Of a stretch of 64,000 bases of DNA, positions 14,359 through 52,640 are shown piece by piece. The DNA comes from Candidatus Geothermarchaeota archaeon (GTDB lineage Archaea; Thermoproteota; Nitrososphaeria; Geothermarchaeales; JDFR-13), in NCBI GenBank assembly GCA_015523545.1, contig WAKB01000001.1, forward strand, positions 1 through 64,000. Direction: 5' to 3'. The position numbers were made by a program, and so were the translations under genes. The notes below the pieces were generated by a model. The model was not told the DNA's origin. It saw only the letters and a program-made list of their open reading frames with translations, and searched no databases. Positions within the stretch are counted from its first letter, which is position 1, and each line of letters opens with the position of its first letter.

Positions 14359-15075
14359 GTGGAGCCCCTCACCAACGCATTGATATTCGGCGCGATCGTG
14401 TCAGGAGTTTCTCTTGCCGCTATATTGATGGTGAGGGTGCTCCGCCTAGATAGGATAGGTATAAAGTATCAGCTCGCACTCGCCTCGGGAGTATTCATTG
14501 GCATCGCATTCCTAGGTGCATTGCCCAGGATCGTTGAGACGGGGGACGAGGCATATGCACTCCCCGTATTCCTAGGGTTCATAGCATTCTCACTTCTGGA
14601 GCTGTCGCTCGGATATCATGAGCATCACCACATCGGGAGGAGCCATCTAGGCATCATGAACCTCACCAGCGACCTTCTCCACAACTTCATCGACGGGATA
14701 TTTATATACACAGCCTTCGCCATAGACTACGGTCTAGGCGTAACCATCTCCCTAGCCACTGTACTGCATGAGGTGCCGCAGGAGGTTAGCGACTTCATAA
14801 TACTGATAAACAGTGGCTTCAGCTATGGTAAGGCTGTGATCCTAAACCTAGCCGTGTCTCTATCCACTATACTGGGGATACTTATCTTCAGCATGGTGGA
14901 GGTGGACACCCTTATGGTCCTGGGCTTCATAATGGGTAACTATCTATACCTAGCCGCTGTAGACCTGATACCAGAGGTGTCTAGGGAGACCTCGGGAACG
15001 GAGAGGCTCAAGGCATACCTCTTCTTCGCCCTAGGGATAGTCATTATCTACCTCCTACACACCTATACCAACTAA
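14359..15075 (+). CDS. ZIP-family metal transporter
   Basis: About 238 residues from GTG 14359, which follows GGGGTGG; the track start is a TTG five codons earlier. Eight membrane segments with the two diagnostic ZIP motifs: HNFIDG in helix IV (near residue 115) and HEVPQE in helix V (near 140), which form the binuclear metal site, plus a His-rich loop HEHHH before helix IV. Imports zinc or iron, or another divalent ion. Its last bases overlap the convergent thioredoxin-like gene. Neighbouring FTR1 makes iron a reasonable substrate guess. Confidence 0.9.
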   Translation: MEPLTNALIFGAIVSGVSLAAILMVRVLRLDRIGIKYQLALASGVFIGIAFLGALPRIVETGDEAYALPVFLGFIAFSLLELSLGYHEHHHIGRSHLGIMNLTSDLLHNFIDGIFIYTAFAIDYGLGVTISLATVLHEVPQEVSDFIILINSGFSYGKAVILNLAVSLSTILGILIFSMVEVDTLMVLGFIMGNYLYLAAVDLIPEVSRETSGTERLKAYLFFALGIVIIYLLHTYTN

Positions 15076-15689
15076 CCCTTCCTACGCCATAGAAAAGCTA
15101 TCGTAACGCTTGAGATCACTAGTAGTAGGACGATTGTGGGTAGGTATTCAAAGATATAGAAAGGCCTACCCTTACCAGAGTATTCTAAGACATCTTCATA
15201 CGTAGTAGGGACCCCGGATAAATAGTCATCGAAAAAGGTAACCCTAGCGATGTTCACAGACTTAAGACTCGTACCTATATACACTTCAAGCTTTCCGTTA
15301 GGATTATTTATTAGCCTTTCCCAGAAGTTGTCCTCAAGAACCGCTCCAATTACTATTGCCTCAGGTTTACCATTAACAACAAGAACTACTGTAGGCGTCC
15401 CTGCCTGAAAGTCATAGTCGGTTGCAAGCCTTTTTAAAAGGTTGTTATTCACCTCCTCCTCAATCCAGAACCAAGTAAAGTTCATGTTATTCTCTATAAT
15501 GTAATTTGCTAGGTCGTGACAGTGTGGACAGGGTCTCCACCCATAAACATATAGCGTGTAATTATTCTCCACTTCTAGACCACTAACCGTCGTAGTCATA
15601 GTTCCTATTACATAGCCTGTTAAGAGCATTGACAGCAGAAGTATTAGTGACACGTGAGAATAGGATATCTCAACTCTCATTTTACACAC
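15072..15689 (-). CDS. Membrane-anchored thioredoxin/glutaredoxin-like protein
   Basis: 205 residues. N-terminal signal anchor (residues about 12-33), then a thioredoxin fold with active site CPHC in YVYGWRPCPHCHDLANYI and the cis-Pro segment GTPTVVL, and a C-terminal membrane helix with basic WRRKG tail. The redox domain therefore faces outward, where it could handle disulfides or metal-bound thiols. Translation may start at ATG 15680. Base use is clearly more AT-rich than flanking genes. It is separated from the next gene upstream by 114 bases that hold a C/D-type guide RNA. Confidence 0.78.
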   Translation of the reverse strand: MCKMRVEISYSHVSLILLLSMLLTGYVIGTMTTTVSGLEVENNYTLYVYGWRPCPHCHDLANYIIENNMNFTWFWIEEEVNNNLLKRLATDYDFQAGTPTVVLVVNGKPEAIVIGAVLEDNFWERLINNPNGKLEVYIGTSLKSVNIARVTFFDDYLSGVPTTYEDVLEYSGKGRPFYIFEYLPTIVLLLVISSVTIAFLWRRKG

Positions 15690-15706
15690 CTATGAATTAT
15701 ATGGCT

Positions 15707-15768
15707 GGGCTCAGGGTACCTCGATTCGGCCATAATGTTTAAGCCGGGCAGTTCGGTCATCATAGCCC
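15707..15768 (-). ncRNA. Candidate C/D box guide RNA (23S rRNA target)
   Basis: On the minus strand: stem GGGC, box C ATGATGA (15763-15757), 13 bases, D'-like CTTA, 3-base spacer, C'-like ATTATGG, 15 bases, box D CTGA (15714-15711), stem GCCC. The flanking GGGC/GCCC closes the kink-turn. A TATA-like ATATTTATAG lies at 15793-15802, 25-30 bases before the RNA start. The 12 bases before box D, AATCGAGGTACC, are complementary to the conserved ACCUCGAU of the 23S peptidyl-transferase region; by the N+5 rule the modified base is C2498 (E. coli numbering, from memory). D' and C' are degenerate. The RNA lies wholly between two genes. Confidence 0.6.
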
Positions 15769-15803
15769 TAAAACCACCATATGCGACATGAACTATAAAT
15801 ATT

Positions 15804-16133
15804 TTATCCACCTGAATAACCCCTCTTAGATAAATATACAGCATAGAAGAGGAAGATGAGTAGAAGGATTAAAAGTGGTACATGCTCAGAAGCCCTCTCA
15901 GCAACCTCACCAGTACTCGTAACTATCGAGCGTGAAAGCCTACCAATATTGAAGGATATGAGCACCAGTAATGGCCAGTGCACCCCCTTGTTGAAGAGGA
16001 ATATCGCTGCCAGGTATAGGGCCACCAAGAGGATATTCTCATACTTGATGAAGAGGGGGATGGGTATGAAGACGGTAACCAATATGTATGAGGCTATGAC
16101 GAGGCCTGAGATAATGGCTAGTCCCTTGTCCAA
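15804..16133 (-). CDS. Small membrane protein, unknown
   Basis: 109 residues with four predicted membrane helices and short loops (LAIISGLVIASYILV, NILLVALYLAAIFLF, WPLLVLISFNIG, VPLLILLLIFLFYAVY). No family recognised. Its first 16 bases overlap the end of the FTR1 gene on the same strand, so it is translated with the iron permease and may be an accessory subunit. Like its neighbours it uses more A/T than surrounding genes. Confidence 0.65.
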   Translation of the reverse strand: MDKGLAIISGLVIASYILVTVFIPIPLFIKYENILLVALYLAAIFLFNKGVHWPLLVLISFNIGRLSRSIVTSTGEVAERASEHVPLLILLLIFLFYAVYLSKRGYSGG

Positions 16134-16942
16134 ACTACCCCCCTCAGGTATAGATATAAAGCCATCCCTAGATACCCAAACTGGAGTATGACCCTTCCAA
16201 TCTCCATTTTTGAGGAATACCCTATAAGCGCTGATAGTATGCCTCCGATAACATTGTTCTCATTCATTGGGTGATCATTAGGAAGGTTTAGATTATATAC
16301 ATATGTCCCTAGAGGATCAACAGCGACCCCATTCTCCTCCATATACTCAAGTGTCTCGTGGACCGCATAACCCAGAATACCCGAGGCTATAAAGATTATC
16401 ATAATCGAAGTTACCACAAACATCTTCTTAAGAGGTAGCCTTATCTCTAATATGTAGATTAGTGCTGCTAAGAAGATGGCTAATAGGATCCCTCCGAGAA
16501 GACCTATGATATTCTCCATAGGTGTGTACTGTCCCAGGAAGGGAATCATGAATAAAACCATCTCCACACCCTCCCTAAACGTCACCACGAAGCCAATGAC
16601 TAGTAGTGCAGTTGGCTTATATAGGTTCATGGCCACCTTCTCTCTAAGCTCGGTCACGAGTGTCTTAGCACTCCTACCCATGTGATACACTACATAAGTA
16701 AGAACAACGACCGCAAGGTAGGAACCTGCTATCTCGAACATGGCTTTATATGCAGTCAACTCATACAATGTATAAACACCTATGCCGAGCAGCAGGCTTG
16801 TTATGACTGCGATACCTACACCCATAAAGATATGCTTGTTGTTCTGACTCATGCCCAGCTTGTAAAGCGCACCAGTTAGCACAGCTACAATTAGGACTAC
16901 CTCGAGCGCCTCCCTGAAGCTAATCACGAACTGTGGAATCAA
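16118..16942 (-). CDS. FTR1-family high-affinity iron permease
   Basis: 274 residues, seven membrane helices. Two REGLE-type motifs are present as REALE (residues 10-14) in helix 1 and REGVE (about 125) in helix 4; these acidic residues bind iron in FTR1/EfeU. No periplasmic EfeO-like domain or multicopper oxidase gene is seen nearby. Start is TTG 16942 with GGAGGGG seven bases upstream; GTG at 16927 is the alternative. Two palindromes lie upstream (see regulatory entry). Downstream are a small membrane protein and a thioredoxin-like protein, suggesting an iron or redox-metal uptake operon. Confidence 0.88.
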   Translation of the reverse strand: MIPQFVISFREALEVVLIVAVLTGALYKLGMSQNNKHIFMGVGIAVITSLLLGIGVYTLYELTAYKAMFEIAGSYLAVVVLTYVVYHMGRSAKTLVTELREKVAMNLYKPTALLVIGFVVTFREGVEMVLFMIPFLGQYTPMENIIGLLGGILLAIFLAALIYILEIRLPLKKMFVVTSIMIIFIASGILGYAVHETLEYMEENGVAVDPLGTYVYNLNLPNDHPMNENNVIGGILSALIGYSSKMEIGRVILQFGYLGMALYLYLRGVVWTRD

Positions 16943-51849: not shown

Positions 51850-52640
51850 TCCCCGATATAGACCTCTATGACTTTGGGGTTGTTAGCCACCTCGTCAGGC
51901 AGGCCCTCCGCGATAACTGTTCCACGGTCCATGACATAGACATAGTCTGCGAATGGAAGGGCTATATCAATCCTATGCTCTATAAGTAGGAAGGAGACGT
52001 CCCACTTCTTTAGGAGCCCCCTGATGTATGAGAGGATCTCATTGGCATACTTCGGGTCGGTACCGCCTATGGGCTCGTCCAGTGCGATAAGCTTCGCATT
52101 GGTTGCTAATGCCCTGGCCACCTCCAACATCTTTAGCTGGCCAGCCCCTAGGGAGGATGCGGGCATGTCCCACTTCTCCTCCAAGCCTACGCTCCTAAGT
52201 ATCTCGAATGCCCTCTTAATGTTCGCCTCCTCCTCACTTATCCATAGAGGCCTTATAGGCGCCTTCAAGGGGTTCTCCCCACTATTCTTGAGTGCGACCA
52301 AGACGTTGTCTAGGACGGTCAGCCCTATGAAGGGCTCCGGGATCTGGAAGGTCCTAACAAACCCTACCCTATATACCTCATGGGGCCTCCAGCCCGTGAT
52401 ATCAATACCATTATAGAATATCTTCCCACCATCGGGCTTCAAAACACCTGTACATACATTTACGAATGTGGACTTACCCGCCCCATTAGGGCCCATCAAC
52501 ATGGTTATCTTGTTCCTAGCCACCTTCATAGACACATTGTTAACGGCTACAAGACCACCAAACCTTTTCACCACTTTGAATGTCTCCAATATATACTTCT
52601 TGGGATCTAGAGTGTAGGCTTCAGCAGTATCCTGCAGCAT
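51846..52640 (-). CDS. livG: Branched-chain amino acid ABC ATPase LivG
   Basis: 264 residues. Walker A GPNGAGKSTFVNVCTG, LivG-specific RTFQIPEPF, signature LGAGQLKMLEVARAL (A in the LSGGQ position), Walker B LIALDEPIGGTDP, H-loop IEHRIDI. About 15 extra N-terminal residues precede the usual start, so initiation at a later codon is possible. Forms the heteromeric ATPase with LivF; transcribed leftward together with the binding protein gene upstream. Confidence 0.9.
   Translation of the reverse strand: MLQDTAEAYTLDPKKYILETFKVVKRFGGLVAVNNVSMKVARNKITMLMGPNGAGKSTFVNVCTGVLKPDGGKIFYNGIDITGWRPHEVYRVGFVRTFQIPEPFIGLTVLDNVLVALKNSGENPLKAPIRPLWISEEEANIKRAFEILRSVGLEEKWDMPASSLGAGQLKMLEVARALATNAKLIALDEPIGGTDPKYANEILSYIRGLLKKWDVSFLLIEHRIDIALPFADYVYVMDRGTVIAEGLPDEVANNPKVIEVYIGE

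Follow-up and report, generated by a model that had tools for sequence, protein, structure and literature searches.

When analysing the first 64,000 nucleotides of contig WAKB01000001.1 (hereafter the window), a candidate gene for a C/D box guide RNA was found on the minus strand at 15707–15768, 62 nt long when counted from end to end of its terminal stem. The gene is located between an ORF encoding a small membrane protein (end at 15804) and an ORF encoding a thioredoxin-like protein (ATG at 15680), all on the minus strand. Read from 15768 to 15707 the sequence is GGGCTATGATGACCGAACTGCCCGGCTTAAACATTATGGCCGAATCGAGGTACCCTGAGCCC, with the layout GGGC-T-ATGATGA … ATCGAGGTACC-CTGA-GCCC. Box C (ATGATGA, 15757–15763) agrees perfectly with RUGAUGA and, like box D (CTGA, 15711–15714), is invariant in three species. 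The ends form a terminal stem of 4 bp between GGGC (15765–15768) and GCCC (15707–15710), present both in the own genome (G000) and in G003, a member of the same genus. The perfect boxes and the GGGC/GCCC closing stem had already been pointed out in the initial annotation and were recovered here on the minus strand. In both G000 and G003 the distance from the element to the start codon of the thioredoxin-like gene, which runs in the same direction, is ~26 bases.

Upstream of the RNA a TATA-like element, TAAAATATTTATAG, is found at 15793–15806 (minus strand), with its core TTTATAG at 15799–15793, i.e. 25–31 bases before the RNA start, in line with the 25–30 bases given earlier. The 50 bases upstream of the RNA are 92% identical in G003, compared to 78% for the remaining region. 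The TATA-like element at -25 to -31 is only consistent with the guide RNA having its own promoter, and the corresponding signal is less clear upstream of the copy in a third species, G001.

The surrounding region (15072–16942 of the window) contains genes for an FTR1-type iron permease, the small membrane protein and the thioredoxin-like protein, a grouping shared by three species of the genus. The thioredoxin-like protein is membrane-anchored and contains a CPHC motif; searches against Pfam gave no match for it or for the small membrane protein.

The guide upstream of box D and its predicted target in 23S rRNA

The guide ATCGAGGTACC (15715–15725, minus strand) is located directly upstream of box D. 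No match to 23S or 16S rRNA was found in the own assembly (1.15 Mb, 17 contigs) and, the native 23S rRNA being absent, the 23S rRNA of G003 and G002, both of the same genus, was used as target reference. Both contain the sequence CTTGGTACCTCGATGTCGG, and ATCGAGGTACC forms 11 contiguous Watson-Crick pairs with GGUACCUCGAU within it. It had been claimed that 12 guide bases match the 23S rRNA; 11 of them pair while the twelfth (A) is opposite a G and unpaired. The N+5 rule points to the nucleotide paired with the G in the fifth place before box D, here the first C of ACCU; by the anchor A2497-Cm2498-C2499-U2500 (PMC4690841) this is C2498 in E. coli numbering. The assignment to C2498 is thereby supported, and the complementarity without which the earlier reading would have failed is present in the same-genus 23S rRNA, used in place of the native one missing from the assembly. 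A duplex scan of the whole 23S rRNA ranked the C2498 site first (-19.8 compared to -12.5 for the next site), and the guide was not among the strongest duplexes with tRNAs.

In L145 (4012–10816) and L146 (1–5664), from same-genus genomes, the RNase P RNA gene is located ~54 bases downstream of the 23S rRNA gene on the same strand and is followed by tRNAs and the SRP RNA, together making up a compact cluster of stable RNAs.

The upstream guide and the internal region

A putative second (D') guide, CCGAACTGCCC (15746–15756, minus strand), follows box C and was overlooked in the initial annotation. It pairs with the helix 80 sequence GGGCAGUUUGG of 23S rRNA in its own family, with one G-U, and perfectly with GGGCAGUUCGG, found in most other 23S rRNA sequences of the class examined. 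Helix 80 is its best site in the 23S rRNA (-21.3 compared to -18.1), and with some tRNAs the guide reaches -18.5, weaker than the value for helix 80. We take the site to be approximately 2237–2247 in E. coli numbering, just before the P-loop. Because no C'/D' motifs can be recognised, the base that would be targeted is left as G2239, C2240 or A2241; the best internal candidates are CTTA/CCAA and TATGGCCG but no clear CUGA or RUGAUGA is present, and the C'/D' region is thus regarded as degenerate. The corresponding internal motifs of the G001 copy are ATGA and GGGATGA.

When folded, the RNA shows the terminal stem together with a possible internal hairpin, CGGC...GCCG (15727–15746, minus strand), at the place where the D'/C' motif is expected. 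The hairpin has 5 bp including one G-U in G000 and 6 bp in G003, and the pair counts revealed zero covariation, in a test limited to these two close sequences. The fold suggests that a short hairpin may replace the C'/D' boxes. The upstream guide of the G001 copy, AAACTGCC, would turn the G-U with helix 80 into an A-U; helix 80 is only the second-best 23S site for this guide, the 23S rRNA scored not being that of G001 itself.

Conservation within the genus and similar guides in other Thermoproteota

A syntenic copy is present in G003, where 57 of the 62 positions are identical compared to 78% over the other 489 aligned columns, and all five changes fall outside the boxes, both guides and the terminal stem. 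In G001 a second and more diverged syntenic copy was found, with the FTR1 and small membrane-protein genes upstream of it and the thioredoxin-like gene downstream (48% identity for the small membrane protein and 45% for the thioredoxin-like protein). This copy has a poor terminal stem; boxes C and D are kept, and the sequence ATCGAGGTAC-A-CTGA gives the same N+5 position. The two syntenic homologues thereby support the original interpretation as a C/D guide directed at C2498. In G001 the guide RNA is separated from the thioredoxin-like gene by two small ORFs, one of 148 aa; judged by eye only, these ORFs (L075, 1600–2255) resemble a toxin-antitoxin pair.

Searches for homologues in G002 and in the rest of the family revealed none. 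A pattern scan of contigs gave 50 stretches, among them one true homologue (the G003 copy), and three other archaeal pattern matches did not have the appearance of C/D RNAs on inspection. Covariance-model matches outside the genus had no C2498 guide and were treated as chance.

When 398 genomes from the phylum were scanned with the pattern ATGA-N0-8-CGAGGTANNCTGA, 24 were matched, compared to ~8 for the reversed control; matches to GATGA...CGAGGTANNCTGA were mostly coding sequence. The first scan brought out C/D-like RNAs (L099, L107–L117 and L120–L122), mostly outside long frames, with the order box C, C2498 guide and D'. They share the C2498 guide (CGAGGTAC) and the same N+5 position before CTGA, but the guide is placed right after box C and before D', and it is accompanied by another partner guide. 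The differing position and partner make it probable that these RNAs are not direct orthologues of the one described here, and together the matches suggest that RNA guides to C2498 occur repeatedly among Thermoproteota.

Predicted function and alternative explanations

In 1.153 Mb of the own genome there are 331 pairs of box C and box D at the right spacing, and 15707–15768 is the only one where a perfect 11-base 23S guide comes together with 4 bp or more of terminal stem. Ten genomes simulated with a first-order Markov model gave none with both guide and stem and in total one 11-base match; the simulated genomes held ~170 C/D pairs, about half the real count, which makes the comparison inexact although the margin is large. 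Taken together, the whole-genome scan and the simulations make a chance origin unlikely. The same scan brought out at least two further C/D RNA candidates with 10–11-base 23S guides in G000, on C5 at ~87–157 (L163) and on C3 at ~52142–52221 (L180), and the upstream guide of the latter also matches the helix 80/P-loop region.

Genes for the protein partners are present in the own genome: fibrillarin (PF01269, E 3e-75), L7Ae (PF01248) and, adjoining fibrillarin, an ORF of 391 aa that is Nop5-like as judged by sequence and position and not by profile. Of the features expected of an archaeal C/D sRNA, those found are the boxes, the terminal stem (G000 and G003), an 11-bp guide obeying N+5, the L7Ae and fibrillarin profiles and the Nop5-like ORF, whereas the internal C'/D' motif has no clear counterpart. 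The RNA resembles archaeal box C/D sRNAs (Dennis et al. 2015, PMC4644070) in its length, its perfect C and D boxes and its terminal stem, as well as in having two rRNA guides, following the N+5 rule and addressing targets near the peptidyl-transferase centre. It differs from them in its degenerate C'/D' region with a possible hairpin instead. A covariance search against Rfam, suggested together with the initial annotation, identified no relevant family at cut-off for 15707–15768. It did yield a sub-threshold alignment to sR14 (RF01145) over 15709–15767 on the minus strand, but the score of 11.1 bits (E 1.3) is far below the cut-off of 38 bits and the RNA is not assigned to this family.

From the sequence comparisons we consider it highly probable that 15768–15707 (minus strand) encodes an archaeal box C/D small RNA directing fibrillarin to 2'-O-methylate C2498. 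The minus-strand gene would be transcribed into the small RNA, L7Ae would bind the C/D kink-turn and Nop5 and fibrillarin would join. The guide before box D would then pair with the peptidyl-transferase loop and fibrillarin would methylate the 2'-O of C2498. The upstream guide would pair with helix 80 beside the P-loop, and the RNA may in this way hold two parts of domain V during folding.

The most likely alternative, to which we give only a small likelihood, is that the RNA is a genuine C/D RNA while C2498 is unmethylated in vivo, either because the pairing serves folding alone, as a chaperone, or because it is the other guide that works. The degenerate C'/D' region would fit with this, and the internal hairpin may hamper formation of a symmetric RNP, but the C/D side directing C2498 is perfect and its N+5 position, unchanged in three species, is seen again in other families. 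Even less probable is a leader element, in which a kink-turn ahead of the thioredoxin-like ORF would be bound by L7Ae for control of translation, with the rRNA match being secondary. The short distance to the co-directional ATG in G000 and G003 speaks for such an element, and L7Ae has been proposed as a regulator of translation through k-turns (PMC5539422). In G001, however, the small ORFs separate the RNA from the thioredoxin-like gene and yet this copy retains its boxes and C2498 guide, which argues against a role in the leader only, and an 11-base match to 23S rRNA at N+5 would be needless for a leader element. That short box motifs, of which the genome has 331 C/D pairs, merely resemble a guide RNA by chance within intergenic DNA is very improbable given the simulations, the syntenic conservation, the two 23S guides and the protein machinery.

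The RNA, which very probably directs methylation of C2498, belongs to a known and well-described class. In a review table the row for Cm2498 lists RlmM of E. coli and has no archaeal entry (PMC11542601), in agreement with the earlier remark that this position is 2'-O-methylated by a protein enzyme in bacteria. The predicted product is the same, Cm2498, but RlmM is a stand-alone protein enzyme that is not guided by RNA, and no relationship is implied. Neither PMC4644070 nor PMC7994747 mentions position 2498 in its main text, and no report of a C/D guide to C2498 was found among the open-access papers covered, so that archaeal guides to this base may have been published elsewhere. In the alignment numbering of PMC4644070, where C2830 corresponds to E. 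coli C2556 (an offset of 274), C2498 would fall at position ~2772. A literature search for target-assigned C/D RNAs in Thaumarchaeota gave only two general reviews. A more tentative idea, which we regard as possible but somewhat doubtful, is that several archaeal lineages guide methylation of C2498 by RNA, convergently with RlmM, and that the own species and G003 use a plain internal hairpin for C'/D'.

If confirmed, the RNA would give the class Nitrososphaeria a further C/D guide with an assigned target. Bacteria would then use a protein, and archaea RNA guides, for the same ribose methylation in the peptidyl-transferase centre, and the use of both routes would suggest that Cm2498 has a real functional value.
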